In this document: positions 1 to 54,476 of the stretch, piece by piece
How positions within the stretch are numbered: position 1 is the stretch's first letter
How the letters are laid out: each line of letters begins with the position of its first letter
NCBI GenBank assembly: GCA_029261855.1
Contig: JAJDAN010000066.1
Coordinates: 1 to 64,000 of the forward strand
Length of the DNA stretch: 64,000 nt
Reading direction: 5' to 3'
DNA from: Deltaproteobacteria bacterium
GTDB taxonomy: Bacteria; Myxococcota_A; UBA9160; UBA4427
Notes under the pieces: model-generated
Told to the model about the DNA's origin: nothing
The model's database searches: none
The model's input: only the letters and a program-made list of their open reading frames with translations
Program-made: the position numbers and the translations under genes

Positions 1-909
1 CCACTCCATGATCTCGACGTCGGCTTCGACAGGGACGCGCTGGAGGCCGCGGGGGTTCGAGGAGCGGACGCGCTCCAGTTTCAAGGCCCGCTGAATGGTC
101 GCGCGGTAAGGGGTTCCCCTGTCCGTCTGCAACATGACTATGTTCCGTGACTGGTCGCAGCCCACCACACTAAAGGTCTTCCGTCGGTGCTTGAGAAGAT
201 CACCACGCTTGAACGGGCACCCCGGGGTGAAGACACCGGCCCCGAGCACGTTGTTATTCCGCCACGCCAAGGCTTCTTTTAACCCATTGAACAACCGCTC
301 ACGCGCACGGAACTCCCGGTCATGCCCACGACAAGCGGTCTGCCCGGTGCTCCAGCAGTAAGCGTGCACCATTTCGTGGAACAGCACGGCCCCCATGACC
401 TGAGCTGGGATCTGTGGCCCCTTCAACTGGCCGAAGATCGTGATCTGCGTGAACCCGTCGCGTGGACCGCCGCGGTAAGCGCGGAACACACCGTGTCTCG
501 ACACGGCCTCTGGCCCCCACTTGAGCGCGTCTACAACGATCGGGCGTTTGCCCAGGGCGGCCAGCTTGGTGAAGTAGGTCTTGTTCAAGAAGTCGAACAC
601 GGCCCTGAGGTTGTTTGGGACACCTTTCCACTCTGGAGACGACCTGAAGGACCCGGGGCTGGCCGTTGGCCGGGTGACCTTCTTCTTGGCCGCCCTTCTG
701 ACCGCCTTCTTCTTGGTGACCTTCTTGGCCACACGCTTCTTGGTAGCCTTCTTGACCACACGCTTCTTGGTAGCCTTCTTGGCCACGCGCTTCTTGGTAG
801 CCTTCTTGGCCACGCGCTTCTTGGTGGCCTTCTTGGCGACCTTCTTCTTGGCCTTCTTGGTGACCGTCTTCTTGCCGAAGACGTCTGGCAGATCGAAGAA
901 CCCTGTCAT
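1..909 (-). CDS. SprT-like zinc metalloprotease with Lys-rich N-terminus (3' end cut by window)
   Basis: The frame is open from an ATG at 909 to the window edge, giving 303 residues without a stop. Residues 1-12 are MTGFFDLPDVFG, followed by about 55 residues of Lys/Ala/Thr/Arg/Val repeats. The C-terminal part carries H178-E-M-V-H182 and a third His at 196 (C-R-G-H-D-R-E-F). This HExxH...H pattern fits the SprT/Spartan-like zinc peptidases, which cut proteins, including DNA-bound ones, although the family also contains uncharacterised phage members. The N-terminal peptide recurs in the next gene downstream in this window and in the kinase-like gene at 53463, so it looks like a shared targeting tag. 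The Lys-rich stretch probably binds DNA. The protease call rests on the motif only. Confidence 0.8.
   Translation of the reverse strand, partial: MTGFFDLPDVFGKKTVTKKAKKKVAKKATKKRVAKKATKKRVAKKATKKRVVKKATKKRVAKKVTKKKAVRRAAKKKVTRPTASPGSFRSSPEWKGVPNNLRAVFDFLNKTYFTKLAALGKRPIVVDALKWGPEAVSRHGVFRAYRGGPRDGFTQITIFGQLKGPQIPAQVMGAVLFHEMVHAYCWSTGQTACRGHDREFRARERLFNGLKEALAWRNNNVLGAGVFTPGCPFKRGDLLKHRRKTFSVVGCDQSRNIVMLQTDRGTPYRATIQRALKLERVRSSNPRGLQRVPVEADVEIMEW
722..829 (-). repeat. Four tandem 27-bp coding repeats (KKATKKRVA-type)
   Basis: Units start at 722, 749, 776 and 803 and differ by only one to three bases. Each encodes a nine-residue Lys-rich unit in the N-terminus of the SprT-like protein. Near-identity at DNA level suggests recent slippage expansion. 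Confidence 0.9.
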
Positions 910-917
910 GCGCCCTC

Positions 918-2591
918 CTAGGTCGGCCCAGCGTCTTCGCCAAATGCGCCAGCCGGCAGGTGCCAGGGGCGCTCAATCGGGGACTCACTCCACTGCTGGG
1001 ACAAGGCGATCGGGATCAGCCTGCGGTTGGCAAGCAGCGCCTCGAACGGCGTGGCGTCCTGCACGAACAGCGGCAGCGGCTTTCCCTTCCCCTTCACGTA
1101 GGGGAAGCGTCGGCGCAACAACTTCTTGCGCTCCTCTGGGCCCGCTGTCTCCAAGAGTGCCGCCAACTCCTCAGCCAGCAAGCCCTCTGTCTCCACAAAC
1201 AACTTCCAGCGCTTGGGGTCGATCGCGCGGATCGAGGCCCACATGGACTTCGACCCGAAGATACAGGTGAGACACGACAGCCGGCCCCAGCCCAGTCGAT
1301 ATGCAGGGTGTGGTCTGATCTGCCAGCGGGCGATAATGGCCCAGACGTCGATCTCGCACCAACGCAGGATCGGGCGCCAGCGCTCCACGTGCCGGTTGTG
1401 CGACCCGTGGCGCCCGGACCAGTCCCAGGTCACCCGACCGCAGGAGTCTGTACGCTTGGCCCACAGCGCCTCGAACTCGCGGAGCGGGTAGCCGGCTCGA
1501 GCTGCGGACTCCTCGGCGCGTTCACCGGAGACAACCAACACGCGCTTCCCGCGCAGGTCCGCCCGGTTGGCGAGGTGACTGCGCCCCACGTCGATCTTGG
1601 CCACCGACGAGCACCAGCGCCCGCCCTCGATCGAGCCCAACTTGGGCATGGAGCGGCGGGTCTGCGGCTTGCCGATCCCTCCGGTGTAGAGGATCCGCCC
1701 GTTGGGCAACTCGACCCCCATGGGGGCGGTGGCTTCGTCCTCCTTGAGCACCTCACCCATGAGGCCACCCTCGCGCCAGGAGAAGTAGAGGGGGATCTGG
1801 AGGCAGTCACAGACCGCGCGGCAGTAGTCCTCGGTCACGGGCCAGTCGAAGGCGTGCTGGGTCGCTCCGCCGAAGAACCAGGGCTTGCCGTCCACGGAGT
1901 GGTGCCAGGCCTCAATGGTCGTGCTGGGGTTCAGGCCAAGCGAGCGTGCGATCTCGATCACGTAGAGCAAGCAGGCCAGGCTGTCCTTCCCACCAGAGAA
2001 GAAGACGACGATCTTGCCCGCGCGGTGCCCAGCAATATCAGGGTCAACGAACCAGCGCAGATCCGGGTCTTTGTAGTTGTCGGGAATGGCGTTCTTGCGC
2101 TCCGCGGGCCCGATCGGTTTGTGGGCGGGGGGTGGGGGCGAGGGGACGTAGGGCTGCGGCCAGGCGTTGGGGATCTTGCCCTGGTCCCAGGCTCGAGCCT
2201 GGGCACGACGCGACGCCTCCTTCTGGGTCTTGTTCCCACCGCACTTCTCAGGGAACAGGAAGTCGCCGGCGAAGTCGCCTAGTTCAGGCGGCGTCGCGGG
2301 GCAGAGTTTGGCGCGCTTGGGGGAGGTCTTCTTGGCTTTCTTCTTGGCCTTCTTCTTGGAGGCGCGGCGCAGGGCGGATTCGCTGGCGTGCTGCCCTGGG
2401 CGGTCGGCGTCGCTCGTTGGGAGAGCGCAGGCGGTGCCGGGGACCTTCTTCTTCCTGACGATCTTCTTCTTCGTCTTCTTCTTGACGGTCTTGACCGGCG
2501 GTCGCTTGGGGACCTTCTTGACGACCTTCTTCTTGGCCTTCTTCTTGGACCCAGAGCCAAACACGTCAGGGAGATCGAAGAACCCGGCCAC
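918..2591 (-). CDS. PAPS reductase-like PP-loop protein with Lys-rich N-terminus
   Basis: The 557-residue protein begins MAGFFDLPDVFG, then has a Lys/Arg-rich region to about residue 95. The PP-loop SGGKDS lies at 199-204. RWCSS (325-329), SGERAEES (355-362) and a C-x2-C pair (C440, C443) follow, which resembles the PAPS reductase/DndC family rather than QueC. Such proteins activate a substrate with ATP, and DndC relatives bind an iron-sulfur cluster and insert sulfur into DNA. No other dnd gene is visible, so phosphorothioation is not supported by context. The tag and basic tail match the SprT-like neighbour 8 bp downstream, suggesting both go to the same place, perhaps virion DNA. The fold is well supported; the substrate is unknown. 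Confidence 0.85.
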   Translation of the reverse strand: MAGFFDLPDVFGSGSKKKAKKKVVKKVPKRPPVKTVKKKTKKKIVRKKKVPGTACALPTSDADRPGQHASESALRRASKKKAKKKAKKTSPKRAKLCPATPPELGDFAGDFLFPEKCGGNKTQKEASRRAQARAWDQGKIPNAWPQPYVPSPPPPAHKPIGPAERKNAIPDNYKDPDLRWFVDPDIAGHRAGKIVVFFSGGKDSLACLLYVIEIARSLGLNPSTTIEAWHHSVDGKPWFFGGATQHAFDWPVTEDYCRAVCDCLQIPLYFSWREGGLMGEVLKEDEATAPMGVELPNGRILYTGGIGKPQTRRSMPKLGSIEGGRWCSSVAKIDVGRSHLANRADLRGKRVLVVSGERAEESAARAGYPLREFEALWAKRTDSCGRVTWDWSGRHGSHNRHVERWRPILRWCEIDVWAIIARWQIRPHPAYRLGWGRLSCLTCIFGSKSMWASIRAIDPKRWKLFVETEGLLAEELAALLETAGPEERKKLLRRRFPYVKGKGKPLPLFVQDATPFEALLANRRLIPIALSQQWSESPIERPWHLPAGAFGEDAGPT

Positions 2592-2594
2592 TAC

Positions 2595-3695
2595 TCACCA
2601 CTTTCCAAGGGGCAAGTCTGAGTATCCCACGTCGTCCTGGAGACGTCTGGCGAAGAAGATCGGCGCCTCGTCGGTGTGCTGGACCAGGCCCTGGGCCACC
2701 AGGTTCCACAAGGCCACGTTGGCTGTGCGACCGAGCTGCGCAGCCGCGTCGGAGCGGCCTTGGCTGATCTTGATCACTAGGCCGTTGAAGGTCATGGGAG
2801 GACCCTGGCGAAGTGCGTGAGCCAGGGCGGGCTCCCAGACGCTCGAGTCGGCCTGGGCGAGCTGCGCCCAGCGACGAGCGCCGGCGGTGGTCTTCCTGAC
2901 GCGCCTCGGGTCCGGGTCAGCGTCCGAACCTATAACCTGGTCCCAGCGCAGGTTGCTAGTGAGGGGGTGGATCCTCCACCAGGATCCAGTGCGCCACTGA
3001 GCGCCTCGGTAGGACTCGGACTGGCCTTGAGTGGTAGGGAGTGGGAGAGGGGCGGACCAACCGCGCACGCGGCCCGAGGAGCGTCCCATGCCGGTCTGGG
3101 CTGCGTGGAGTTCCTCCTCGGACTCGACGTGCTGCTGCCACCAGGGGTCGTCAGAGGGAGGGTTGGTGCTGGACTCGACCTGCACGGAGACCTTGCCGTC
3201 TCGGATCATGCGCGCCAGCCCGAGCAGGCTGTGTTCGCCCCACCCGGACCTAGATCCGGTATGCACCAACCACATGCGACTGGTGATCCCTGCATGCGTG
3301 CCAGGGGGCGTGACGTCCCTGACGGCGATCTTGGGGACGAGAGCTGGCCCGCTGCGCCCAAACGGGTGTTCAAACAACGGCGCCGACGGCTTCTTGTCCC
3401 AGCCCACCAGGACCACCTGCACGCCTGCACGCTGCGCCTCATGCAGCAACCTCTGCCAAGGGCGTGGATCCTGTGCGCCACGGTTCACTTCACGGAGAAG
3501 CGACTGAATGCCAACCTCAGCGCGAGGGTTCTCCTCTACCTCGCGCCGCTCCTTCAACTCGCGCAACTGGCGCCGCTGCTCTGCCAGGCACTCGGGGCAG
3601 ATCCCGTGGGAAACCAACGAGCCAGGCGCCCCCTCTTGGAGCACGGCGTCGCACCAAGCGCACTCGACACGGAGGTTGGGATCACGTTCGGTCAT
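2595..3695 (-). CDS. Zinc-finger protein with a phage repeat module, function unknown
   Basis: The 366-residue protein opens with C12-x2-C15...H30...C33-x2-C36, a likely zinc site. Residues around 65-105 (LLREVNRGAQDPRPWQRLLH) resemble helical modules repeated in the 808-residue protein at 50596, where each module has a helix, a tryptophan and a VVALR/VAIVLR-type strand. The C-terminus ends GYSDLPLGKW, close to the GAFDLPDLGSW end of the protein at 4319-6115. The gene sits 3 bp from the PP-loop gene and the next gene upstream, inside one minus-strand operon. I do not recognise the overall family. Confidence 0.75.
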   Translation of the reverse strand: MTERDPNLRVECAWCDAVLQEGAPGSLVSHGICPECLAEQRRQLRELKERREVEENPRAEVGIQSLLREVNRGAQDPRPWQRLLHEAQRAGVQVVLVGWDKKPSAPLFEHPFGRSGPALVPKIAVRDVTPPGTHAGITSRMWLVHTGSRSGWGEHSLLGLARMIRDGKVSVQVESSTNPPSDDPWWQQHVESEEELHAAQTGMGRSSGRVRGWSAPLPLPTTQGQSESYRGAQWRTGSWWRIHPLTSNLRWDQVIGSDADPDPRRVRKTTAGARRWAQLAQADSSVWEPALAHALRQGPPMTFNGLVIKISQGRSDAAAQLGRTANVALWNLVAQGLVQHTDEAPIFFARRLQDDVGYSDLPLGKW

Positions 3696-3698: not shown

Positions 3699-4319
3699 CT
3701 AGACCTCGTCCGAGGCAGTGCGTACCCACTGGATAGTGCCTAGTTGCAAGTACCCGTCCACGTCCTTTACAACGCGCCCCACCCCTTGTTCCTGAATCAC
3801 CGGAGCGTCTACCCAGAAAGAGTGCGCTGGATCAGTCTCTCGAACGTGGGCATGGGCCTCCTGGCGAATCCCGCGCCAGGGCGCGAGCAGTTCGACCTGC
3901 CAGATCGGAATGAACCCACGCTCACCAGGCGGCGCGCCACCATACTGGCGCTGCACTAGGTAGGGGTCTTGATCCTCCGCATACTGCACGAGGTAGGGTC
4001 CGTCAGTGAAGTACTCAGTCCCAACCTCACCGTCTTCGTCCTGCACGTCGAGGTTCACACCAGGCGTCACAATGGGCTCGCCGGACATGAACGCTTCAAG
4101 ATCGAAGTTGAGTTCGGAGATCGCCTCCCTCCACCGCCGCAACGGCGTCCACTGCGGCCACTGGACCCACTCGCCCGTGGCGAGCATGTCGCGCAAGACC
4201 ACGTTGCGAGCTGCAGTCTGCAGCCCGGCCTGGGTCAGAGCGTGGAACAACTCCGGGACCACTGTGTGGTCACCGGACTCGAACCTCCGCTGCAGGGCGC
4301 GGATCCTGCGATCGCTCAC
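3699..4319 (-). CDS. Hypothetical protein, start chosen at GTG
   Basis: About 206 residues starting VSDRRIRALQRRFESGD. I chose GTG at 4319 because it overlaps the upstream stop as TAGTG and has AGGGAG six bases before it; the TTG at 4325 would abut the ribosome site. The N-terminal helix (RALQRRFESGD..VVPELFHALTQAG) resembles the helical modules in the neighbouring 2595-3695 product and in the 50596 product. The rest is acidic with aromatic residues and no recognised motif. It is translationally coupled to the transglycosylase-like gene. Confidence 0.7.
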   Translation of the reverse strand: MSDRRIRALQRRFESGDHTVVPELFHALTQAGLQTAARNVVLRDMLATGEWVQWPQWTPLRRWREAISELNFDLEAFMSGEPIVTPGVNLDVQDEDGEVGTEYFTDGPYLVQYAEDQDPYLVQRQYGGAPPGERGFIPIWQVELLAPWRGIRQEAHAHVRETDPAHSFWVDAPVIQEQGVGRVVKDVDGYLQLGTIQWVRTASDEV

Positions 4320-6115
4320 TACCAACTCCCTAGATCAGGCAGGTCGAAGGCACCTGGCTCACGCCGTTGCCGCCGTGGCTCTGTCCGCAGAACGCGTTTC
4401 TTGGCCACGCGCTTCTTCTTGGGAAACATGACCTCCTCAACAGCCGTCTCGATCCCAGGGATCTCACGCCGCATGTCGGCCAGACTCCCGCGGCGCCAGG
4501 CGCGCAAGATCCCCTCGCGCTTCACCAGGGCCGAGTAGTAGGCGCCGAGGAACCTGGCCCACTGGTCGTCAAGCCACGCCTCGAGCGCGGGATCCTCACC
4601 GCGCTGGTAGAAGAACTCACCGGGATCGCTCAAAAGCAACTTGCGCTGAGCTGCGCTCAAGCCACCGCGCTGGGTCTGGAGAAAGTCGGCGAGATCACGA
4701 CGGTAGGCGCGGGGCAGCCAGAAACTGGCCTCTTCGTAGATATGGTCCGTGTAGTCGGGAACGGCCTCCTTGCTCCACCCCCGCTCGGTGACCCAGTCCT
4801 CCATGGTGCCCGAGCCGCGAAAGCTCTTCTGGAAGGCCTCGTGCATGACGGGGTAACGCACGAGATCCTGGGCGTAGGTGTAGATCTGAGGCTCGACCCC
4901 CAGGAACCCGCGCCCGACACCACGGGTGATCAGCACGGAGTCGAAGATCACACGCAGGTCTGGCCGCGCCTTCTTGACCGCGTCGTAGGCCGCCTCGACG
5001 CGCCCAGGGCCGATCCCCAGGAGGTGGATCATGCGCAGCCCCTTGGCGCGCTTCACGAACTCGACCAGTTCGGGGATCTTGGCTGCCTTGGCCTGCATGG
5101 GCATGGCGCCCACGATCTTGCTGGCCGGGACGCCAGCTCGACGCAGTTTGGCGACCTCGGCGTTCCAGAACTTCCAGCGTGGAGTCGCGCCCCCCTGGGC
5201 GACGAGGAGGAGGTTGGCCTTGCGCTTCTTGGCCAAGCCCACGAGCGTAGGCATGAACTTCGCCAGGCGCCGCGCGGTCTCCCGCTGGTCACCGATCTTG
5301 TCGGGGGCCACGAGGTAGGCGTCCTGGCGATAGGCCTTGGCGATCTGGTCGTAGACACCAAGAACCCCGGACCAGTCCGCGTCGCTGATCGGGCGCTGCT
5401 TGGTGAACTCCTCGTAGGCGCCTGAGTCCACGAACACAGGTGTTCCACGCCCGGCTAGCTGAGACAGCGCCAGCAGGCAGTCCGGTCCGCAGTCCTGAGC
5501 CTGGACGCCGACCCCGAAGCCACCGTGCTGCTCGGCGAGGCGCGCGAACCCGAAGATCTCACCAGGCGAGCCTTGGGCCCCCGAGCCGAAGTAGATCGAC
5601 CCTCGCGGAATGTAGAGGTCCTGGGGGCGGAAGGGTTGCGGTAGCCTCGGGGACTTCTCCTTCTGCGCGCGGAGGTCTCGAGCCCACCGCTCTACCGACG
5701 ACGGGGGGACGTGGTACTTGAAGGCGATCTCGCCCAGGGTGGGCAATTGTGTCCGCAGGTGAGACTGCACGTCCTTGAGGCGGAGCCTGGCCTGGTCCAC
5801 GAGCCACTGGTAGACGGCCTTGGTGGCGTCAGGCGGGGCCTTGATCCCGCCTCGCTTCTTCTTCACCAGCGGCGGCACCGGGCCCTCGGTGCGCTTCGAC
5901 GGCACGTTAGCTGCCACTGCGCGGCCAAAGACGAGCCCTAGGCGCTGGGCGTTGTGCCAGTGCCGTGTCGGTGGCAACTTGCCCTCAGGAACAGGGACGC
6001 CCTCAAGGGCCGGGTGCTGACGCCAGGGGTTTCCTGGGTTGGTCCGCGACCAGGGCAACGCGCTGTACAGTGGCCCGGCGCCGTAGTACACAGGGACTAC
6101 TGGCGCCGGGGCCAC
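4319..6115 (-). CDS. DpdA-like tRNA-guanine transglycosylase family protein (DNA 7-deazaguanine insertion candidate)
   Basis: A 598-residue protein with a GTG start. Residues 225-400 hold the TGT-superfamily signatures: VDSGAY (D230), PDKIGD (271-276), VAQGG (305-309), GAMPM (336-340), HLLGIGPGR (364-372) and FDSVLITR (391-398), the last matching the FDCVLPTR nucleophile loop of bacterial Tgt. Phage DpdA enzymes exchange guanine in DNA for 7-deazaguanines, so this is the likely role. There is an extra N-terminal region of about 165 residues with a possible HTH (GEIAFKYHVPPSSVERW), and the C-terminus is basic and ends GAFDLPDLGSW. No preQ0 synthesis genes (folE, queC, queD, queE) are visible, so the modified base would come from the host or from elsewhere in the genome. 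Confidence 0.85.
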   Translation of the reverse strand: MAPAPVVPVYYGAGPLYSALPWSRTNPGNPWRQHPALEGVPVPEGKLPPTRHWHNAQRLGLVFGRAVAANVPSKRTEGPVPPLVKKKRGGIKAPPDATKAVYQWLVDQARLRLKDVQSHLRTQLPTLGEIAFKYHVPPSSVERWARDLRAQKEKSPRLPQPFRPQDLYIPRGSIYFGSGAQGSPGEIFGFARLAEQHGGFGVGVQAQDCGPDCLLALSQLAGRGTPVFVDSGAYEEFTKQRPISDADWSGVLGVYDQIAKAYRQDAYLVAPDKIGDQRETARRLAKFMPTLVGLAKKRKANLLLVAQGGATPRWKFWNAEVAKLRRAGVPASKIVGAMPMQAKAAKIPELVEFVKRAKGLRMIHLLGIGPGRVEAAYDAVKKARPDLRVIFDSVLITRGVGRGFLGVEPQIYTYAQDLVRYPVMHEAFQKSFRGSGTMEDWVTERGWSKEAVPDYTDHIYEEASFWLPRAYRRDLADFLQTQRGGLSAAQRKLLLSDPGEFFYQRGEDPALEAWLDDQWARFLGAYYSALVKREGILRAWRRGSLADMRREIPGIETAVEEVMFPKKKRVAKKRVLRTEPRRQRREPGAFDLPDLGSW

Positions 6116-6639: not shown

Positions 6640-8121
6640 TTAGCCGATCACTCCCTTGGCCTGAAGATCAGCGATCAGGGCTGCAAGCACGTTGTTGTTG
6701 TTGAGCGTGGTGGCGCTGGCGCTGGCGAGCAGCGTGCGATCCTCGACCACAGTCGCGGTGCGCGTGTAGGCCGCCGAGAGTGCAACCGCCAGGCCGTGGA
6801 GACCAGCAAGGCCTGCCGCTCGGCCCACGGAGACTGAACTGGCGTTCGTCCCGCCGATCGTGATCACGCCGGTGGTCCCGGACGTGACGGCACCGGAGTC
6901 GATCGACACCGCGCCAGAGTTGCCCGACGTCGCGCCGCCGTTGCCGGAGACGATCGTGACCGCGCCGCCGGTTCCAGTGGCCCCGGCCAGTCCAGCCTGG
7001 ACCAATGCCTCACCACCCGCCGCGGTTCCTGAGCCAGAACCGGCGATCACGCGGGCTGTGCCGCCTGCGCTGTTCCCAGCCGTGGCATTTCCGCCGACGA
7101 TTTGGGCTCGCCCGCCCGCGCCCGAGGTACCTCCACCGGCGCCGCCGATCAGATCAGCAACACCTCCAGGGCCTGTGCCACCACCTGCGCCGCCGGTGAT
7201 CTGAACGTCACCGCCTCCGCTGGCAGCTCCGGCGCCTCCCACCAGAGTCAAGGCGCCGGAGACCCCAGAACCAGTGGAGGCCCCACCAGTGATCGAGACC
7301 GCCCCACCGGACCGGTTCGTGCCCGCGCCTGCCGCGCCGAAGATCGAAACCGCGCCGCCGTCGCCCTCGGTGGGGGCGCCCGAGGAGATAGTCACGGCGC
7401 CTGAGTTGCCGCTGGTCGCGCCGCCGGCGCCCGAGGTGATTGTGGCTGTGCCACCCGCACCAGTGCCGGCAGCCGCCCCTCCTGCGAGTGAGACACCGCC
7501 GCCAACCGCGGTCCCGGTACTAGATCCCGCGGTCACGGTGACTGCGCCGCCGGCTCGGTTCGTGCCCGAACCCGCTGCGCCCTGAATGGTGACCGAGGCA
7601 CCATTTCCGTCGACCGACGGGCCGGCAGAGACGGTGACGGTTCCGCCGACTCCAGTGGCTCCGGCGTTTCCACCGCGAACGGTTACTGGGCCTCCAGCCC
7701 CAGCGCCGTCACCGAAGCCACCCCGGACGTCGATCGCGCCGCCGGCGGCGCCTGACGCCGCCAAAGCAGTGCCCGAGCGGATCGTTGTGGTGTGGCCCGC
7801 CCCCACCAGGCTGGTGCCTCCACCTACCTGGAGCGTGGTGCAAGCCGCGTCGGCCCACAGCGTACGAGTGGGCAGCGTGGACTCGATCCGAGGGATCAGA
7901 GCCTCGTCCGTGGACTCACGGAGAACCTGAGGAGCAGCAGCGGGACCAACACGGTAGAGAACGACTTGGGCCATAGTGACCTCCAACTGGTCCTCAAGAA
8001 CGGGACCTGCGTATGCGGCAGCCTGAGTTGAAACGGAATCCTCGAGAACCGGGCCAGCGTAGGCCGCCGGCAAGTTCTCGACTGGGACCTCAAGCGAGGG
8101 CCCAGCGCTTGGCGCTGTCAT
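6640..8121 (-). CDS. Glycine-repeat fibre or adhesin protein
   Basis: 493 residues. Residues about 110-430 are repeats of 15-18 residues built on GGxVxIxxG (for example GGAVTISSGAPTEGD). They could form a beta-solenoid or a polyglycine-II bundle such as that in phage S16 Gp38. The C-terminus (SVSVGRAAGLAGLHGLAVAL, then a helix ending DLQAKGVIG) is not repetitive. The N-terminus repeats AAYAGPVLED twice. A second ATG at 7974 has a stronger ribosome site (GGAGGT four bases before it), so a form lacking the first 49 residues may also be made. The repeats match those of the 1,234-residue protein at 11409. Confidence 0.85.
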   Translation of the reverse strand: MTAPSAGPSLEVPVENLPAAYAGPVLEDSVSTQAAAYAGPVLEDQLEVTMAQVVLYRVGPAAAPQVLRESTDEALIPRIESTLPTRTLWADAACTTLQVGGGTSLVGAGHTTTIRSGTALAASGAAGGAIDVRGGFGDGAGAGGPVTVRGGNAGATGVGGTVTVSAGPSVDGNGASVTIQGAAGSGTNRAGGAVTVTAGSSTGTAVGGGVSLAGGAAAGTGAGGTATITSGAGGATSGNSGAVTISSGAPTEGDGGAVSIFGAAGAGTNRSGGAVSITGGASTGSGVSGALTLVGGAGAASGGGDVQITGGAGGGTGPGGVADLIGGAGGGTSGAGGRAQIVGGNATAGNSAGGTARVIAGSGSGTAAGGEALVQAGLAGATGTGGAVTIVSGNGGATSGNSGAVSIDSGAVTSGTTGVITIGGTNASSVSVGRAAGLAGLHGLAVALSAAYTRTATVVEDRTLLASASATTLNNNNVLAALIADLQAKGVIG

Positions 8122-11408: not shown

Positions 11409-14400
11409 CTACACCACGGCCTGAGGACCACGGACGATCTGAATCTGGACGAGCAGGTCACCGGCGCCGTCATAGGTCTGGACGTCGGTGATAATCCCAA
11501 TCGAATTGCGGTAGTTCCCGGACGCGGCAGGAGGCACATTGGTGCAGCTACCGGCAGTCGTGCTAAGGAACACCTCGTCGCCCACGGTGAGCGTGAGACT
11601 CCCCACCAGCAGGCACTGCACGTCCGAGCCCTCGGTGATCACGGTCCCAGACGCAGTGGTCAGGATCGCCGTGGGCACGAACCCAATGATCCTGGCTGCC
11701 ACTCCAGCCACCGTGGCGTCAGCGCGGAGCACTGTGTCTGCGGCCACAGCAGAGTGGCTCGTCACCTCACCGATCGCCAGCGTGGTGCCCTCACCGTTGG
11801 TGTAGGGCGTGGTGAGCTGGTTCGCAGCACCGGACCCAGCCGAGATCTCGTTGATCGCCTCAATGATCGTCTGGGCCGTGGTCACCAGGGCGGGGCCGGC
11901 ACCAGCCGCGGTGAGCGGGTAGCTGGTCTCGCCTGAGGTGAAGAGGACCCGGCCCTGGGCGCCAGTGCCAGTTCGTGCGCCGGCAGTGATCGTGACGTTG
12001 CCGCCGGACCGGTCGGTGCCGACGCCTGCCGCGCCGGTGACTGTGACTGCACCCCCGTCGCCCTCGGTGGGGGTGCCGCCGGTGATCGTGACTGCGCCGC
12101 CGTTGCCCGACGTTCCGCCGCCGGGGCCGCCCGTGAGGAAGGCAACGCCGCCGACACCAGTCGCCCCGCCCGTGCCGCCTCGCATGGAAGCGGTGCCGCC
12201 GGCGCCAGTTCCAGAACCACCCCCGCCACGCTGAGTGAGCTGGCCGCCAGCAGAGGTTCCGGCGCCGTTCCCCGCAGCGATCTGCACGAAGCCACCGGGC
12301 CCCGTTGCCGACCCACCGCCGAGGAGGTCAATGCCTCCACCCGCGTTACCAGAAGTAGACGTGCCGCCGGTGATCGTGACTGCGCCTCCTACTTGGTTGG
12401 CCCCAGCCGCGTCACCGCCGGTCACCGCTACGGCACCTCCGTCCCCGTCCGTGGGAATGCCGCCGGCCACCGTGACCGCGCCGCCGTCCCCAGAGGTAGA
12501 ACCTCCGGCTCCACCGCGAACAAGAACGCCTCCTCCAATCGCGGTGTCTCCACCGGCGCCACCGAGCGCCGTGACCGCACCACCAGCTCCCGCGCCGCCG
12601 GTGCCAGTCGCTGCACCGCCAAGCAGGAGAACCTCGCCGCCGGGACCGTTCGTATTGGCTGTTGAGCCACCTCGGACGGTTGCAGCACCCCCTCCGCCAG
12701 ACGCTGTAGCCCCAGCGGTGCCTCCGACCAAACTCGCGCCAGACCCTGCGTTTCCTCCATTGCTGTCGCCAGCGGTGATCGTGACCGTGCCACCTGAGAG
12801 CGAGGCTCCAGTGCCAGCGTTCCCGCCGTCGATCGTGACCGCGCCGCCGTCTCCAATGGCGGTGCCAGCACCACCGGACACACCGACCGCGCCTCCAGCT
12901 CCAGACGTCACGCCTCCGTCTGCGCCGGTGATCGTGACGGCGCCACCCGCGGCAGTGGCGCCAGCGCCTCCACCGGTGATCGTGACGTCCGGGCCAGCAG
13001 TCGCCCCAGTCGAGGCTCCTCCAGTGATCGTGACGACCCCACCGGCACGACTGCCCGCGGAACCGTTGCCGCCAGCGATCACCACAGGACCGCCGTCCTG
13101 TGCCGTCAGGGCGTTCCCGCCCCGCAGGCGCGCCTGGCCGCCACCCCCGCCTGTGGCGCCTCCAGTTCCGCCGGTGAGTTCGAGGTTTCCACCCGCAGCG
13201 GCAGCCGCGCCTCCGCTCCCGCCGAACACGTTGACAAGGCCACCCTGAGCGCCAGTGGCTCCAGGCAACCCGCCCTGGACGGTAACAACCCCGCCGTCCC
13301 CGGCGGCGGCGCCGGGTCCAGCAGTAACGTTCACAGCGCCGCCAAGGTTCAGGCCCGTGCCCGCACCAGCCCCGCCTAGAACCTGCACTGCCCCACCGGC
13401 GGACCCAGCGCCAACCGCCGACCCGGCGCCACCCTGGAGAGTCGCTGCGCCGCCGGGTGTCGTTCCTGTTGATCCACCAGCAGTCACCGACACCGCGCCG
13501 CCGGCACGGTTCGTGCCAACGCCGTCCGAACCGGAGATCGTGACGGCGCCGCCGTCGCCGTCCACTGGCACGCCACCGGTAACGGTGACGGATCCGGCGG
13601 GGCCGGAGGCAGACCCACCCGCGCCGCCACGGAGGAGGCTATCGCCGCCGGTGCCAGTCGTTCCGCCAGCGCCAGCGAAGAAGAACAGGTCGCCGCCTGT
13701 TCCTCCGCCCGCGGCGCTCCCTCCGCGGACAGACCCGTCGCCGCCGTTTCCGTTCACGGCCAGACTCGAACCGCCGGTGATCGTGACGGTACCCCCGGGG
13801 CCCGCAGCAGTTGTTCCGGCGAGCCCGCCGGTGATCGTGACGTCCGGACCGGCGTTTCCGCCGGTGGACGCACCGGCGGTGATCGAAACCGCCCCTCCAG
13901 TAGTGCCGGCTCCGGCAGCGTTCGACCCGGAGATCGTGACCGCGCCACCATTGCCAGCCACCGGCGCACCGCCGGTGACCGTGACTGACCCTCCTCCACC
14001 TGAAGTTCCACCACCCTGGCCGCCGGTGATCGTGACCGGCGCACCAACTGCAGTCGAAGTGGGGCCGCCGGCTCCAGCCTGGAGGGACAGCGCCCCGCCA
14101 GCGCCGGTCGTCCCTCCGGCCCCACCCGTCACTGACGCCGCGCCACCCGCAAAGGTGGCGGCGCCCAAGCCGCCGACCACGGTGGCCGCGGCGCCAGCGG
14201 CGCCAGCGCCAGGGGCCCCGCGGACAGCGTCACCCGAGGTCATGGAGATATCGGTGCCGCCAGTGGTGTTCCCGATCAACAGCGTAGCGGCCAGGCTCTC
14301 GCCTCCACCTGCAGCGGCGACGGCGTTCAACGCGCCAATGATCGACGTGACTCCGGCGTAGACCGGGCCTACGAGGTCCGTTGCCACGACGTCGTTGTAG

Positions 14401-15113
14401 GTGAGCGGGGTCGCAGCTCCTCGAGCAGTGAACGTGATATCGCCGTCAACACCACCAGCGCCTACCGGTGCGGTGATCGCCACGGAGCCACCGTCGCTGC
14501 CAGCCCCAGGCGCGCCACCGATCACACTGGTCACGCCGCCAGCGAAGCCAGCGCCCCCAGCTCCAGCCCGGATCGTCGCCGGGCAGCCCACTGCGCCCAC
14601 GCCTGGGCACCCCACGACCTCGTCCCCAGAGGTGAGCAGGATATCCATGCCCCCGGTGGAGTTTCCGATCACGAGCGTGGCGGCCAGGCTCTCGCCGCCG
14701 CCTCCGCCCATGCCGGACACTGTGCTTCCCAGAATGATCGGGCCAGCACCGGGGGCGGCCCCGATCCCGAGGATCGTGTGATCGACGGTGCAGACCAGGC
14801 GCGCCACGCCAGACCCAGGGGCGGTCTGGGAGAAGTCCAGAGTCACCTCACGCTTGTCCGCGGACAACGACACGAACCGAAGATCGTTGACACCAGGCGC
14901 CAACGCGCCACCAGCCGGGCGGCCAGGGTCCGCGTCGATATCGAATCGCAAGGTCGCCGGCGTGATCAACGCCGGGTCAACGCCAGCGTCCACGAACGGG
15001 ATCGCGACCGTGTTGACACCGGGATCGGGAATCCCGGTGGCCTCGGCCACGTAGGGGAGGTTGGCCGCTGGGTTCAGGGGATTGACGACAGCCGCCAAGT
15101 CTGGGAAGGCCAT
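11409..15113 (-). CDS. Giant glycine-repeat fibre protein (1,234 aa)
   Basis: 1,234 residues from an ATG preceded by AGGAG. The N-terminal 180 residues are not repetitive. Two copies of a phage-fibre motif ESLAATL(V/L)IGN(S/T)TGG(M/T)DI follow. About 850 residues are then GGxVxIxGG repeats of 15-18 residues, rich in Gly, Ala, Thr and Ser. The last 150 residues (from about YTNGEGTTLAIGEV) form a non-repeat globular domain with a LTVGDEVFLSTTAG segment. It is the longest protein in the window and by composition a long rigid fibre. Homologous repeats occur in the 6640-8121 protein, separated from this one by the paired adhesins. Confidence 0.88.
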   Translation of the reverse strand: MAFPDLAAVVNPLNPAANLPYVAEATGIPDPGVNTVAIPFVDAGVDPALITPATLRFDIDADPGRPAGGALAPGVNDLRFVSLSADKREVTLDFSQTAPGSGVARLVCTVDHTILGIGAAPGAGPIILGSTVSGMGGGGGESLAATLVIGNSTGGMDILLTSGDEVVGCPGVGAVGCPATIRAGAGGAGFAGGVTSVIGGAPGAGSDGGSVAITAPVGAGGVDGDITFTARGAATPLTYNDVVATDLVGPVYAGVTSIIGALNAVAAAGGGESLAATLLIGNTTGGTDISMTSGDAVRGAPGAGAAGAAATVVGGLGAATFAGGAASVTGGAGGTTGAGGALSLQAGAGGPTSTAVGAPVTITGGQGGGTSGGGGSVTVTGGAPVAGNGGAVTISGSNAAGAGTTGGAVSITAGASTGGNAGPDVTITGGLAGTTAAGPGGTVTITGGSSLAVNGNGGDGSVRGGSAAGGGTGGDLFFFAGAGGTTGTGGDSLLRGGAGGSASGPAGSVTVTGGVPVDGDGGAVTISGSDGVGTNRAGGAVSVTAGGSTGTTPGGAATLQGGAGSAVGAGSAGGAVQVLGGAGAGTGLNLGGAVNVTAGPGAAAGDGGVVTVQGGLPGATGAQGGLVNVFGGSGGAAAAAGGNLELTGGTGGATGGGGGQARLRGGNALTAQDGGPVVIAGGNGSAGSRAGGVVTITGGASTGATAGPDVTITGGGAGATAAGGAVTITGADGGVTSGAGGAVGVSGGAGTAIGDGGAVTIDGGNAGTGASLSGGTVTITAGDSNGGNAGSGASLVGGTAGATASGGGGAATVRGGSTANTNGPGGEVLLLGGAATGTGGAGAGGAVTALGGAGGDTAIGGGVLVRGGAGGSTSGDGGAVTVAGGIPTDGDGGAVAVTGGDAAGANQVGGAVTITGGTSTSGNAGGGIDLLGGGSATGPGGFVQIAAGNGAGTSAGGQLTQRGGGGSGTGAGGTASMRGGTGGATGVGGVAFLTGGPGGGTSGNGGAVTITGGTPTEGDGGAVTVTGAAGVGTDRSGGNVTITAGARTGTGAQGRVLFTSGETSYPLTAAGAGPALVTTAQTIIEAINEISAGSGAANQLTTPYTNGEGTTLAIGEVTSHSAVAADTVLRADATVAGVAARIIGFVPTAILTTASGTVITEGSDVQCLLVGSLTLTVGDEVFLSTTAGSCTNVPPAASGNYRNSIGIITDVQTYDGAGDLLVQIQIVRGPQAVV

Positions 15114-21106: not shown

Positions 21107-21133
21107 GGTGGGGCTCTCCTGGCTTGGCTTCGA

Positions 21134-21176
21134 GGGGACACGTGTCCCCCCGGCGGGGCCGAAGCCGCGCCGGGGG
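21134..21176. promoter_or_regulatory. Nested palindromes upstream of the capsid operon
   Basis: 21134-21149 is a perfect 16-bp palindrome, GGGGACACGTGTCCCC. It overlaps a hairpin with 9-bp arms at 21147-21155 (CCCCCGGCG) and 21168-21176. They lie in the 163-bp gap between the phosphatase gene and the TTG-start capsid gene. No T-run follows on either strand, so an operator or attenuator is likelier than an intrinsic terminator. Confidence 0.5.
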
Positions 21177-21269
21177 TTCACGCAGAGAAGAGTGTCCGTG
21201 GGCAACGCCTTGGTGGCGCTCCTCCCATACCACGACGCTACCGCGGGAAACTTCCCCTGCCAGTGGGGT

Positions 21270-38676: not shown

Positions 38677-40398
38677 CTAAGCGCTCTTCTTGGACTTCTT
38701 GTTCTTGGCCACAGCCAGGATCACGGCGCCCAGACCCAGGCTGCCAATGATCAGAACAGGGCCCCAGCCACCACCCGACTGGTTGTTGAACGTGGTCGGA
38801 AAGTAGGACTGCTGCTGAGGAAAGCCAGCCTTGACCTGGGCCTCAATCGCCTTGCGCCGCTCGCGCTCAGCGAAGACGTTGCCGGCGGCACCAGCGCCGG
38901 CGGCCAGGACCTGTGCGATCGACGCGGTGATCGCCGCAGTGTCTCCCCCAGAAGCAGGACGCTGCTCCGGGGGGTAGTAGATCAGCCGGTTCCCGTGGTA
39001 GATCGGCTGGTACATCTCGCTCTCCCGCTTCTGGAAGAGGAGGTTTCCGTCGGGGCCGCGGAACTGGTAAGTCCCATGCTCGGTGGGGCCCAAGATCACG
39101 TAGCCCTCCTCAACCTGCGCACCGATCAACGTGGGGTTTCCGCTGCTCACAGGGGCGCCGAGACCGAACATTTCGGCCCCAGGATCGAAGGCGGACCACT
39201 GGAACCCGGGGATCGGAGAGGGCCCGGAGGGTGCCTGGCCTGGCGCAGACTGCTGGTACGGGCTCGGGCCGGGCATGGGCTGGTACTGCTGCGGAGGGGC
39301 GGTCGGCGCCACAGCGCCAGGGGGGACGAACGGAGACGGGCCCTGGGGGGCAACTCCCCAGCCAGGGAACGCCGCTGGCGGCGCCACGGGGACAGCGGTC
39401 GCACCAGGAGGCGCGTACTGGGTGGGGAGTCCGCTCGAGGCCAACTCCTGCAGCAGGAGGAGTCGCTTCAACTCAGCCTCCCGCTCCTGGCTGCGAAGCT
39501 CGCGCTCCTCGGCTCGCAGGCGACCCTCCTCTTCCATGGCGAGACGCCGCTGCTCGGCGAGGTAGGCGCGCTCCTCGCGGTCGCGCTCGAGCTGGAGGGC
39601 GCGCTCCTCGGCGTCGCGCCGAAGCTGGGCCTCCTGAGCGATCCGATCACGCTCGGCAGTCTCGCGAGCGAGGCGGGCGGCCAACTCCTCGCGCTGGATC
39701 GTCAGCTCGAACTGACGCTGCTCGCGGTCGGCCTCGATCTGGGCTGCGCGGGCTGCTGCGTCGGCGCGGGACGCGGCGTCGGCGTCTGCCTGCGCCTGAG
39801 CAGCAGCCATGGCGTCTGCGCGGGCGGCGGCGGCAGCAGACTGAGCCTGGGCCTGAGCGGCCTGCTGCTTCTCCTTCTTGATCCCACTCACCAGGTTGGC
39901 CAACTCGTTGACGCGCGCCGGAATCCCCTTGACCGCATTGGCGGCGGCGGTCGCGGCGCCAGACGCCTGGCTTGCGAACTCAGCCGCCTTGCCTGCGTCG
40001 GTCACGAAGGCGCACCCGCCTCCAGCAAAATGGCCCTTGATCAGAGACGAGAACTGCGCCCCCACGGCGCCGAGTTGACTGCGACTCTGCCGGACCTTGG
40101 CCTCGGCGCCCTCCAGCTCGGGCATGAACCCCTGGACCTCGAACACTCGCTCCTCGAGCGAAGGGTCTCGGACCAGGGCCTCGTAGGAAGGCCTGGCCGC
40201 GGCCAAGGTGGACTCGGCCTGCATGATCACCTGGTCGGCGTTCTGCAGCGCCTGCATGACCTCAGTGGCGCCGGCATTGTACGGGGCCTTGTTCTGCGCG
40301 TAGCAGGCCTCGCCGTACTTCTGCCAGTTGAGGGTGTCCCAGGGACCAGACCCCATGCCGGTCAAGGCTCGCGCGCCAGCCATGTTGAGGTAAGCCAT
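38677..40398 (-). CDS. Long coiled-coil protein with C-terminal membrane anchor
   Basis: 573 residues from ATG at 40398, overlapping the upstream stop as TAATG. Ala/Gln/Arg/Glu-rich coiled coil at about 150-330. Then Pro-rich repeats (APPGATAVPVAPPAAFP), a beta domain (YVILGPTEHGTYQFRGPDG) and an anchor GPVLIIGSLGLGAVILAV ending KNKKSKKSA. It is the longest array member and could span from a membrane to capsid or DNA. Function is inferred. Confidence 0.78.
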   Translation of the reverse strand: MAYLNMAGARALTGMGSGPWDTLNWQKYGEACYAQNKAPYNAGATEVMQALQNADQVIMQAESTLAAARPSYEALVRDPSLEERVFEVQGFMPELEGAEAKVRQSRSQLGAVGAQFSSLIKGHFAGGGCAFVTDAGKAAEFASQASGAATAAANAVKGIPARVNELANLVSGIKKEKQQAAQAQAQSAAAAARADAMAAAQAQADADAASRADAAARAAQIEADREQRQFELTIQREELAARLARETAERDRIAQEAQLRRDAEERALQLERDREERAYLAEQRRLAMEEEGRLRAEERELRSQEREAELKRLLLLQELASSGLPTQYAPPGATAVPVAPPAAFPGWGVAPQGPSPFVPPGAVAPTAPPQQYQPMPGPSPYQQSAPGQAPSGPSPIPGFQWSAFDPGAEMFGLGAPVSSGNPTLIGAQVEEGYVILGPTEHGTYQFRGPDGNLLFQKRESEMYQPIYHGNRLIYYPPEQRPASGGDTAAITASIAQVLAAGAGAAGNVFAERERRKAIEAQVKAGFPQQQSYFPTTFNNQSGGGWGPVLIIGSLGLGAVILAVAKNKKSKKSA

Positions 40399-42224
40399 TA
40401 GCCGTTCTCCCACTCTGGACCCTCTGCGATAGAGGGGTCGATCACCCAGGTCTTCATGCCGAAGTGGCGGCCTGCGGGGGGATCCCACCCGAGGTAGCTG
40501 TCCGGCTGCGTGCTGTCTGCGCTGAACCACACGAGGTCCGCGCCGTTTGGAATCCCGATCACGGGGTAGACGTGACTCCACTGTTCCTTGCGTGAGGCGT
40601 CGCCCTTGACGGTGCGGAACCCGGCGCGGAATCCGAGTGCCATGGCGAGCGCGGCGGTGGCCGTGCTGCTGTCGTCACACTGGTGCACGGTCCAGTCGGC
40701 CTCGGGGAGCCAGACACAGTGGTCACTGGTGGTGACGTCCACGCAGGGGAGTTCCAGGCCGTCGCGGATCACGTCCTTGACGCGGAGGAGTTTCATGGCG
40801 CGCTTCGGGTTCTCCTCCCGAATGAACAACCTGTAGATCGGGTTCTTGCCCAACCCACCATGCTCCTCGATATAGGCCGAGCCACAGGTGCGGCCAGCCA
40901 TTTTGAGGAGAACGCGAGTCTGCAGCCACAGATCACGACTGGTTGTGGTGAACGTGCGGCCACCGCCGTTTGTGTTCTTGCCAGAGTCCGCCATGACCCC
41001 CTCAAGGAGGCGGAGGGCAGTCTCTTGGTCCAGATCCAGGGACAGTGCGCGTTTGTTCGGCGCGTGCGTCCCCATGCCGCGTAGCCGATCAGTCCACTCC
41101 GGGTCGTTGACCCGGACGTACTTGCGGTGCCTGTAGGTAGCAATGCCCAGACCTGCGCAGATCTTCTCGACCTCGTCCTTGTAGCGCTCCTTAGGGCAGC
41201 CGTCCTGACCGCTGATCGCGAAGCGCCGCTCCTCAGCCCACCCCTCAGAGAGGTAGAGGCCCTCAACGTAAGCTCGGTCGGGGTCCATTTCCCCGGTGCC
41301 GAACGGAATCTCGCCAGGCTGGAGAAGGGTCATGCCCGGAACCAGATTCTCCACGCGCTCGACGTAGACCTCCCTGGACGCCACGGGGCAAGCACATGGA
41401 TTGGTGATCCTGGGGTGCCTCTCACACCGAGCGACCCAGATCTTGTGGTCTGGGGTAAACCGCATGTGAGAGCCGTTGTTGAGCAGGACCTTGTGCGTCT
41501 CCAAGACCTTCTTCTGCCACACGCGCTCAACGCGCGACCAGTCGTCACGCCCCCAGATCTCGTCGCCCTTGCGCAGGGATTCGATCGGTACCAGTTCATG
41601 GCCCTCGCGCCGCAGGACCTGCGTGCCCTGGACGAAACAGTCGCCGCTTCCCTCGGACAGCAGGGTGTACCACGGCGTCTGCACATACTCGAGGCCAGCA
41701 GGATCGAACTCGTAGTTGATCCCGGCGTTCCCCCGCTTGCGCGGCTTGTACGTGACGTCGCCCTTCATGAAGTCAAGGATCGCAGCGGCCATGGCCTTGT
41801 AGTCCTTGGTGGGACCAGGGCTCACGTCCTTGACGACCTTCTTCGCTAGCCAGATCACCTCGGGGTTGCGGTGGCCCCACTTGGAGAGCACCAACTCCTT
41901 CATGATCTTGAGGGTGGCGACGGTCCCAGCCTCCCCGCGGGGGATCTTGAAGTACTTGATCGGCGGCCCCCACTGAATGTCGTAGGGGCGGTCACCAGCA
42001 TGGGTCTTCTGGTAGATCGCGCGCTGCACAGCCGGCGGGATATGGAGTTGCTCCATATCCACAGGGGCCAAATGACCCTCGGGCATAGGCCCTTGTGGCT
42101 TGCTGGCCACAGCCACGTCTTGCCCCAAACCGACCAACGGCAGGGCTGCGCCCTGGGCGTAGGCCATGCGCTGCGTGCCCTTGGAGGTGAGCAGCGTGGT
42201 GTGAGTTAGGGGTCGCAGGGCCAT
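40398..42224 (-). CDS. Transglutaminase-like cysteine protein interrupted by an intein
   Basis: 608 residues from ATG at 42224 (GGGAG site). Residues 1-195 and 516-608 of the precursor are extein. Joined, they read EYVQTPWYTLLSEGSGD-CDDSSTATAALAMALGFRAGF, the GDCDD active-site signature of the phage transglutaminase-fold family, with catalytic His in WSHVYPV and Asp in SADST. Such proteins may cross-link or cut proteins during virion assembly. The intein sits between D195 and the catalytic Cys (residue 516). An ATG at 42167 is a weaker alternative start. Confidence 0.88.
   Translation of the reverse strand: MALRPLTHTTLLTSKGTQRMAYAQGAALPLVGLGQDVAVASKPQGPMPEGHLAPVDMEQLHIPPAVQRAIYQKTHAGDRPYDIQWGPPIKYFKIPRGEAGTVATLKIMKELVLSKWGHRNPEVIWLAKKVVKDVSPGPTKDYKAMAAAILDFMKGDVTYKPRKRGNAGINYEFDPAGLEYVQTPWYTLLSEGSGDCFVQGTQVLRREGHELVPIESLRKGDEIWGRDDWSRVERVWQKKVLETHKVLLNNGSHMRFTPDHKIWVARCERHPRITNPCACPVASREVYVERVENLVPGMTLLQPGEIPFGTGEMDPDRAYVEGLYLSEGWAEERRFAISGQDGCPKERYKDEVEKICAGLGIATYRHRKYVRVNDPEWTDRLRGMGTHAPNKRALSLDLDQETALRLLEGVMADSGKNTNGGGRTFTTTSRDLWLQTRVLLKMAGRTCGSAYIEEHGGLGKNPIYRLFIREENPKRAMKLLRVKDVIRDGLELPCVDVTTSDHCVWLPEADWTVHQCDDSSTATAALAMALGFRAGFRTVKGDASRKEQWSHVYPVIGIPNGADLVWFSADSTQPDSYLGWDPPAGRHFGMKTWVIDPSIAEGPEWENG
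40680..41639 (-). mobile_element. Intein with LAGLIDADG endonuclease (320 aa)
   Basis: Starts at Cys (CFVQGTQVL, 41639) and ends WTVHQ at 40680; the +1 residue is Cys. Block A has CFVQGTQVL...RKGDEIW, block B ETHKVLLNNGSHMRFTPDH, the endonuclease motifs are EGLYLSEGW and LLEGVMADSGK, and block F has CVDVTTSDHCVWLP. The terminal residue is Gln where most inteins have Asn; some functional inteins use Gln. It sits exactly at the catalytic Cys, so the enzyme is inactive until splicing. Confidence 0.88.
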
Positions 42225-42330
42225 GGACGCTCCCGGTCGGAAAGCGATTCCGCCTCTGCTCTTGGGTCGGCTTGAGATCTGACACGAGGAAGGCCCAGCG
42301 CGAGCCTGGCTCGATCCAAATGTCAGCCTA

Positions 42331-42807
42331 TCAGTAGGGCCGTCCCCTGCCACCGCGTTGCGAACCGGGCGGGGGAGTGTACGGATCGCTTGGGTGCGGG
42401 CCGTAACTCAGCGGGATCACCGACCCGTCTGCCTGGAAGGTTCCACCTGGTCCAGGCCAACGCAGAGGACCTGGAGCGCTCGTGGGCAGCGGTGGTGCCA
42501 TGTAGGACGAGGGCGAATGATCCACTGGCTCTTCGATCGCTCGGGCCAGACGCGCGGTTTGGTCTACAAGTTGAGTGATCTGATCACCCAGCAACGCCAT
42601 GCGGGGTTCGGCGTAGTCCATGCGCGCGTTGGCGTCGGCGAGTTGCTGCGCAAGCGCGCCCATTTGCCGCGCGAGAATCTGATTCTGCTGTTGCAAGCGC
42701 GCGGACACCTGGGCCTGCTGGAGCATGGCGGTTGTGAGGTTCTGCATGTGGACGCAGAACCTCTCCAGGAACTCCTTGGCCTCAGTGGTCTCGGTTGCTT
42801 CGGCCAC
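42331..42807 (-). CDS. Coiled-coil protein with Pro/Gly-rich C-terminus
   Basis: 158 residues from GTG at 42807, five bases past the upstream stop; the ribosome site is weak. A helical region with Gln/Leu heptads (MLQQAQVSARLQQQNQILAR) spans about 20-100; the end is Pro/Gly/Tyr-rich. Probably a particle scaffold or linker. Confidence 0.7.
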   Translation of the reverse strand: MAEATETTEAKEFLERFCVHMQNLTTAMLQQAQVSARLQQQNQILARQMGALAQQLADANARMDYAEPRMALLGDQITQLVDQTARLARAIEEPVDHSPSSYMAPPLPTSAPGPLRWPGPGGTFQADGSVIPLSYGPHPSDPYTPPPGSQRGGRGRPY

Positions 42808-53249: not shown

Positions 53250-53259
53250 GATCTGATCT

Positions 53260-53460: not shown

Positions 53461-53462
53461 AC

Positions 53463-54476
53463 ATGGGTTTCTTCGACCTTCCTGACGTGTTCGGTGGCTC
53501 GGCCAAGAAGGCCGCGAAGAAGAAGGCCACCAAGAAAGCGCCGGGCAAGAAGAAGGCCGCGAAGAAGAAGGCCGTGCGCAAGAAGGCGCCAGCGAAGAAG
53601 GTCGCGAAGAGGCGTCACACCAAGAAGAAGATCTCGCGGGCCAAGCGAAAGCAGACCCGCAAGAAGATCGCCCTGGCTCGAGGGCTACTTGAGCACGTGC
53701 GTCCTATCTGGGGGAAGATCCAGGCCGCTGCAGCTCGGTCACTGGGCAAGAAGCCTCACGGATTCCTGCCAGACCTCGACGAGAAACAGGTTCTCGGCTG
53801 CGGGTTCTGGGGTTGCGTGTTCCCCACCGCCGATCCACGGTTCGTGCTCAAGATCAGCCTGGACGCCACCGAAGGGCCGCACGTCGCCTTGGCCATGAAG
53901 CACTTTCAACTCGACCCAGGCGTGGCCTACTTCCACCGGATCTGGCGCATGCGGAACAAGGTGTGGACCGACGAGTACGGCTACACCGACGTTTGGATCA
54001 TTCTGCGAGAAGAGGTCGACGTCGCGACCATGTGGTCGGGTGAGAAACCGGCCAAGAAGTACGCCAAGGTCCACAACGTCCTGCAGAAACTCCCTGAGTG
54101 CTGCTCGTGCCTGGTCCGCGCCAAGATCCACGTGCAACTCGGTGATTGCGACGTGGAGCGCCTGCGCGCCGAGGAGAAGGTCCTGAAGGGACTGCTGGGC
54201 CAGATCAAGACCGGCCCGGCCCGCTACGTCTCGCGCCTCCTGAACCGCGCCTACGTCGATCACCGGATCGTCTTGGGTGACGTCCACTACGACAATGTCG
54301 GCAAACGCCACCACGACCTGAAGTCGTTTGGCGTGCCCTTTCACCATGATCTCGTGGTGTCCGATCTGGGGGACTGGGGCCAGAACCCGATCACGTGGGA
54401 CAAGTACCCCAAGATCAAGGTCGTCGAGAACCCCATGCGGCTTTCGGCCCTGGCTGAGGGGATTCCAGTCCTGTGA
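53463..54476 (+). CDS. Protein kinase-fold protein with FFDLPDVFG tag and Lys-rich N-terminus
   Basis: 337 residues. MGFFDLPDVFGG at 1-12, Lys/Ala-rich to about 69, then a kinase fold: glycine loop LGCGFWGCVFP (111-121), K130 in VLKIS, a hinge WIILREEVD, catalytic LGDVHYDNVG (271-280; D273 and N278) and a DLG metal motif (301-303) in place of DFG. This matches the kinase-like family of bacterial and phage proteins that phosphorylate proteins or small molecules. Its tag matches those of the SprT-like and PP-loop proteins at the left edge, over 50 kb away. Confidence 0.83.
   Translation: MGFFDLPDVFGGSAKKAAKKKATKKAPGKKKAAKKKAVRKKAPAKKVAKRRHTKKKISRAKRKQTRKKIALARGLLEHVRPIWGKIQAAAARSLGKKPHGFLPDLDEKQVLGCGFWGCVFPTADPRFVLKISLDATEGPHVALAMKHFQLDPGVAYFHRIWRMRNKVWTDEYGYTDVWIILREEVDVATMWSGEKPAKKYAKVHNVLQKLPECCSCLVRAKIHVQLGDCDVERLRAEEKVLKGLLGQIKTGPARYVSRLLNRAYVDHRIVLGDVHYDNVGKRHHDLKSFGVPFHHDLVVSDLGDWGQNPITWDKYPKIKVVENPMRLSALAEGIPVL

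Follow-up and report, generated by a model that had tools for sequence, protein, structure and literature searches.

A peptide shared by the ends of unrelated proteins on a virus-like 190.5 kb element, and its possible role as a docking motif

The peptide FFDLPDVFG is encoded six times in the 6.96 Mb assembly GCA_029261855.1 (Deltaproteobacteria bacterium), each time at the start of a gene on the virus-like contig JAJDAN010000066.1 (190,544 bp; here C66), and each time followed by a Lys-rich linker. The window, i.e., the whole stretch of DNA that was analysed (64,000 nucleotides), comprises positions 1-64000 of C66, about the first third of the contig; three of the copies lie outside it, at 112770-113486, 187106-188863 and 188867-190396, all on the minus strand. 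The six tagged proteins are a SprT-like protein, two PAPS-reductase-like PP-loop proteins, a C5-cytosine methyltransferase, a kinase-like protein and one protein of no known family (Table 1). The favoured reading, which is given slightly less than an even chance, is that the tag is a docking motif on a flexible basic linker, for a common partner on or around the DNA of the element.

A DNA pattern for FFDLPD[VILMF]FG, run on the assembly, gave six matches, which are the six tags; the reversed pattern, used as a control, gave none. The proteins begin with M(T/A)GFF, MGFF or MSFFDLPDVFG. In the window the N-termini are MTGFFDLPDVFG (SprT-like), VAGFFDLPDVFG (PP-loop protein 918-2591, from a GTG start) and MGFFDLPDVFG (kinase-like). 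The GTG starts of 188867-190396 and 112770-113486 overlap the stop codon of the preceding gene. An earlier reading of the window, made from the letters only (here the sequence-only reading), had listed three N-terminal and two C-terminal peptides; all five are present verbatim at the genes it named, with a Lys-rich run after each N-terminal one.

The six DNA copies differ at 6 silent positions by at least nine changes, with no replacement, and five distinct codings are found over 26 matched bases. If the peptide were unconstrained, about 21% of changes would be expected to be silent, and the probability of no peptide-altering change would be ~1e-6, taking the changes as independent and ignoring base-composition bias. 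Because all of these changes are silent, the comparison indicates that the tag peptide itself is under selection, its conservation being that among copies within one genome. Domain homology or chance as the cause of the shared N-termini can be dismissed, since the cores are unrelated and exact copies of the tag reach a BLOSUM62 score of 51, compared with a best score of 22-30 in ten shuffled proteomes. The gene set of C66 consists of 257 predicted proteins, from open reading frames picked by simple codon composition, with no trained annotation. A Lys-rich stretch was found in all six tagged proteins and in 7 of the 251 others (Fisher P 4.5e-9). The residues right after the tag vary (KKT, SGS, GSA, TPK, TAE, GGG).

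Homologues of three of the cores start near the catalytic domain and lack the extension. The PAPS reductase of Pseudoalteromonas phage KB12-38 has 21 residues ahead of the aligned region (193 here), the homologue in Planktothrix phage PaV-LD has 28 (125 here), and the Dcm of a Salmonella genomic island has 17 (about 69 here). The extra N-terminal residues, ~50 to 170 over the homologues, consist of tag and linker, with some further sequence before the core in 918-2591 and 187106-188863. In Dolichospermum phage Dfl-JY45, a distantly related methyltransferase carries an N-terminal extension of its own, unrelated to the tag. Judged from these alignments, it is well supported that tag and linker are a module added in front of conserved cores. 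The term modular signal, used in the sequence-only reading, is appropriate: the peptide is identical, its divergence is silent only, a basic linker is present, it is placed before cores that are untagged in homologues, and both termini are used.

The C-terminal copies are variants of the tag. Protein 4319-6115 ends in GAFDLPDLGSW and protein 2595-3695 in GYSDLPLGKW (both minus strand). In the former, the last 15 residues reach a score of 31 (P ~0.002 over the 257 predicted proteins), and the ending is preceded by the K/R-rich stretch PKKKRVAKKRVLRTEPRRQRREP, in mirror image of the N-terminal design; it is probably a real tag. Having a basic linker of its own, this C-terminal copy agrees with a motif that can function at the N- or the C-terminus. 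Protein 2595-3695 has no basic linker, and the case for its ending as a tag, made by the common DLP-LG-W ending and the location in the same operon, is weaker. The pattern DLP.?LG.W$ is present in these two proteins only, with ~3e-5 expected, a value that is optimistic as the pattern was derived from the two sequences themselves. The similarity of the C-terminal endings, as claimed earlier, probably holds for 4319-6115, and less firmly for 2595-3695.

Table 1. Tagged proteins and their tags and linkers (window positions unless C66 is given; N-tag, N-terminal tag; C-tag, C-terminal tag)
Feature	Position	Strand	Remarks
SprT-like zinc metalloprotease, N-tag	1..909	-	Pfam SprT-like PF10263 E 1.3e-6, 28.7 bits vs cut-off 25.6; 329 residues over join; overlaps start of tagged methyltransferase gene
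Tag FFDLPDVFG, SprT-like protein	874..900	-	
Lys-rich linker, SprT-like protein	652..873	-	~74 residues, 51% K+R
PAPS-reductase-like PP-loop protein, N-tag	918..2591	-	PF01507 E 2.5e-10; phrog_424 E 5.5e-33; BrxP and DndC matches weak
Tag FFDLPDVFG, PAPS-reductase-like protein	2556..2582	-	
Lys-rich linker, PAPS-reductase-like protein	2295..2555	-	~87 residues
Protein of no known family, weaker C-terminal variant	2595..3695	-	
GYSDLPLGKW, C-terminal end	2598..2627	-	
Protein of no known family, C-tag (probable)	4319..6115	-	transglycosylase-like barrel by eye only; no family match
GAFDLPDLGSW, C-terminal end	4322..4354	-	
K/R-rich linker before C-tag	4355..4423	-	
Kinase-like protein, N-tag	53463..54476	+	GCGFWGCV, VLK, GDVHYDNV, SDLGDW motifs by eye
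Tag FFDLPDVFG, kinase-like protein	53469..53495	+	
Lys-rich linker, kinase-like protein	53496..53693	+	~66 residues
Tagged protein of no known family	C66 112770-113486	-	
Second PP-loop/PAPS-reductase-like protein, N-tag	C66 187106-188863	-	PF01507 below cut-off only; tblastn to annotated phage PAPS reductases E 8e-28
C5-cytosine DNA methyltransferase, N-tag	C66 188867-190396	-	PF00145 E 1.8e-22

From their domain matches, at least three of the six tagged enzymes are related to DNA-modifying enzymes, namely the two PAPS-reductase-like proteins and the C5-methyltransferase. The catalytic domains had been described as unrelated in the sequence-only reading. This was confirmed by Pfam for SprT versus PAPS reductase; the kinase assignment comes from motifs read by eye, with no profile match. 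An identity of 4319-6115 as tRNA-guanine transglycosylase/DpdA, suggested by eye, was not supported and is not claimed: no match was found in Pfam, NCBIfam, PADLOC or PDB sequences, nor in phages (tblastn).

The contig is probably a complete circle of ~190.5 kb, because its ends share 71 identical bases and the SprT-like gene reads in frame across the join. This gene, cut at window position 1, ends in GTGA, the start of the next gene. At its 3' end, at the join (window 1-72 and the end of C66), is a near-perfect tandem repeat of ~72 bp with the unit SSNPRGLQRVPVEADVEIMEW, which could be either a real duplication or an assembly effect. On the minus strand, the genes follow one another across the join as 4319 (C-terminal tag), 3699, 2595 (C-terminal variant), 918, SprT-like, methyltransferase and second PP-loop protein (all four with N-terminal tags); only 3699-4325 separates the two proteins with C-terminal endings. 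A leader that was spread through recombination or duplication and has a role e.g. in expression, solubility or N-terminal stability, but none in docking, might account for tags in such an arrangement, as four of the six tagged genes share an operon, in which copying of 5' ends is conceivable, and Lys/Ala-rich repeats occur too in genomes of the same family. However, the peptide is invariant despite its five codings, two copies are located away from the operon, at 53 kb and 113 kb, linker sequences are not the same, and C-terminal variants exist; a shared leader is considered very improbable.

Several C66 proteins match the phage families phrog_2554, phrog_424, phrog_3362 and phrog_5935. On this sequence basis the element is called virus-like, and a particle is only presumed. 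Family searches, which covered the larger C66 proteins, and a motif scan revealed no terminase, portal or confident capsid, and no DNA polymerase or clamp was recognised. Convincing Walker A motifs were found only in RecD-like and UvrD-like helicases. The primase-like protein 56630-60094 had no match among phage or plasmid records.

The tag appears to be confined to this assembly within the genomes searched. It was absent from the 90 others of 91 genomes of the class, and from the 378 others of a phylum sample of 379 genomes, the class included. The FFDLPDVFG DNA pattern gave one antisense chance match and no genuine copy in IMG/VR; among GTDB representatives 19 stretches were read in frame, none of which combined a terminal position with a basic linker. 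Sibling viruses, sought in IMG/VR with the kinase, PAPS-reductase, capsid-candidate and hairpin sequences, were not found, apart from a distant partial match of 27205-29388 (minus strand). A domain of this protein (residues 36-325) recurs in 148 phage records (Mycobacterium, Gordonia, Klebsiella and Roseobacter phages), where it belongs to hypothetical proteins, and is fused here to Lys-rich and other segments.

According to the docking reading, FFDLPDVF would be a short linear hydrophobic-acidic motif at the tip of a flexible Lys-rich linker, able to work at either end of a protein, and one common partner would recruit all the unrelated tagged enzymes through it. The partner would most probably be located on or near the DNA of the element; it could be a clamp-like hub, a viral DNA compartment, or machinery for replication or DNA handling. 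Modification and repair enzymes would thereby act on newly made DNA of the element, with the Lys-rich linker contributing non-specific DNA affinity. Docking motifs usually have the design seen here: an invariant hydrophobic-acidic peptide with a flexible basic linker, accepted at the N- or the C-terminus of enzymes that are otherwise unrelated. The clustering of tagged genes in an operon also speaks for docking. The sequence-only reading had proposed packaging into the particle or placement onto DNA; the latter is the better half of this guess, because three of the six tagged proteins carry DNA-modification-type domains. Binding of the peptide to a protein, association of this partner with DNA and its identity are what we infer. 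The sliding clamp serves as an analogy for how the tag might work, not as a claim of membership. The DNA-modifying T4 alpha-glucosyltransferase co-purifies with the clamp gp45 (PMC13216743), and clamp-binding motifs sit on linkers in T4 gp33 and gp55 (PMC7892883).

Several points weigh against docking. No receptor was identified in the limited family searches and motif scan of C66, and no clamp or DNA polymerase was recognised there. The consensus for binding to the bacterial clamp, QL(S/D)LF (PMC9690074), begins with a Gln that FFDLPDVF does not have, and in a regular-expression scan for this consensus no terminus of any predicted C66 protein matched. The glucosylation pattern of T4 is not mainly caused by clamp binding (PMC13216743). 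The functions of the kinase-like and the family-less tagged proteins are not established. Moreover, other modification genes of C66 have no tag: a C5-methyltransferase (111030-112031), an N6/N4-methyltransferase (61493-62749), a Mom-like protein with LAGLIDADG (22719-24389) and a DUF5591 protein that has an acetyltransferase domain. Tagging is therefore restricted to some of the modification genes.

The main rival, ranked second to docking and rather unlikely, is a virion-packaging signal, by which basic enzymes that bind DNA would be loaded into the particle through the tag and delivered when a cell is infected, like the capsid targeting sequence of T4 or the N-terminal signal of P1 DarB. In T4 internal proteins an N-terminal sequence of ~10 residues leads to head entry and can encapsidate virtually any attached protein (PMC7697877), and the first 30 residues of P1 DarB send a reporter to the capsid (PMC9024508). 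The tag resembles such signals in length, position and modularity, and Lys-rich linkers would suit packaging together with DNA. On the other hand, one or two copies are C-terminal, a poor fit to T4-type targeting; no conserved processing site follows the tag; the presumed structural cluster (~15-50 kb) contains no tagged genes; and the hallmark genes of a particle were not found, as given above. A shared tag is also not the rule, as the P1 Dar proteins have no common consensus (PMC9024508).

Import or partition into a viral replication compartment or condensate is considered quite improbable. It would account for the selective tagging of DNA-acting enzymes, as inferred from their domains, and for the basic linkers; however, no chimallin-like shell gene was recognised, though none was looked for specifically, and in nucleus-forming phages no conserved linear signal was found, import proceeding via a recognition surface (PMC11087766).

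A wider view, which is speculative and held to be unlikely, is that of a viral postcode: in a large, possibly tailless bacterial virus, one invariant peptide would direct a whole group of enzymes to a common hub, which may be the DNA, the replication site or the particle, while an LSGLG motif of presumed structural proteins and an RLRxLERRAxxGDPxA hairpin would mark other groups. A targeting peptide repeated word for word on many unrelated phage enzymes is rarely seen. If FFDLPDVFG does recruit to viral DNA or the particle, it would be a testable, portable tag, and a common destination of viral proteins could be read from sequence.

The presumed structural region includes two adjoining paralogues (18026-21367, minus strand; 39% identity) that are rich in predicted beta strands; the two halves of 18026 resemble each other. 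A low-confidence model of 18026-19666 (predicted local distance difference test score, pLDDT, 39) matched double-jelly-roll capsids (PM2 P2, iridovirus, PBCV-1) and GH172. A double-jelly-roll capsid was not accepted: only this one model matched, the list from the viral library was mixed, and the model of the paralogue had no match at E < 0.001. The reported genomes of prokaryotic double-jelly-roll viruses are 7-18 kb long, which 190 kb would far exceed (PMC5894146). Protein 40398-42353 (minus strand) has, by eye, the look of a transglutaminase-like cysteine protease (GSGDC ... DDSSTA ... WSHVYP ... DST), with a Hint/LAGLIDADG intein inserted at the catalytic Cys. The motif (L/M)(S/T/A)G(L/M)G occurs in some ten proteins, presumed structural or with a single membrane span, in 18026-50061 (25264, 31032, 33561, 37580, 38677, 49423 and others) and in C66 113962-115674. 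Adenovirus-protease-like cleavage sites have the pattern (M/I/L)xGx-G; the motif fits it and may be a maturation cleavage site. Long Gly/Ala-rich proteins with VTITGGAS-type repeats (6640-8121 and 11409-15113, minus strand) and a collagen-like GPTGPTG protein (15629-16360, minus strand) are probably surface or fibre proteins.

The hairpin module DxRLRxLERRAxxGDPxAxARL was seen in about 12 proteins, with up to three copies each (C66 83200-88118, 102096, 107167, 126914, 134285, 177414 and window 3699-4325). The dipeptide NP, often directly before this module, is in excess over C66 (180 seen, 103 expected; PN 108). A protein of 805 residues (C66 155636-158053, minus strand) has a Cas12f1/TnpB-type nuclease domain and a Lys-rich stretch near its start.

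Among known systems, clamp-binding motifs (beta-clamp QL(S/D)LF; T4 gp45 motifs on gp33, gp55 and ligase; PIP box) are likewise short, hydrophobic-acidic, terminal and on a linker, and are found on unrelated DNA-acting proteins. The tag differs from them in its missing Gln, in being N-terminal in six of eight proteins and in the lack of a recognised clamp gene on C66. The T4 capsid targeting sequence and the P1 DarB signal are likewise N-terminal peptides of ~10-30 residues able to carry unrelated proteins. Six copies agree with the T4 type in their N-terminal position, length of ~10 residues and presence on several unrelated proteins; a conserved protease site right after the peptide is missing, as the following residues differ. 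The T4 sequence is cleaved off by a protease, whereas the tag has C-terminal copies and belongs to an element with a presumed particle. The PicA pathway of phage-nucleus import in Chimalliviridae likewise recruits phage DNA-acting proteins selectively, using a recognition surface and no linear signal, in contrast to the linear tag described here. Encapsulation peptides of bacterial microcompartments and encapsulins, although different in sequence, resemble the tag in that several unrelated enzymes bear a peptide at one end, joined by a linker.

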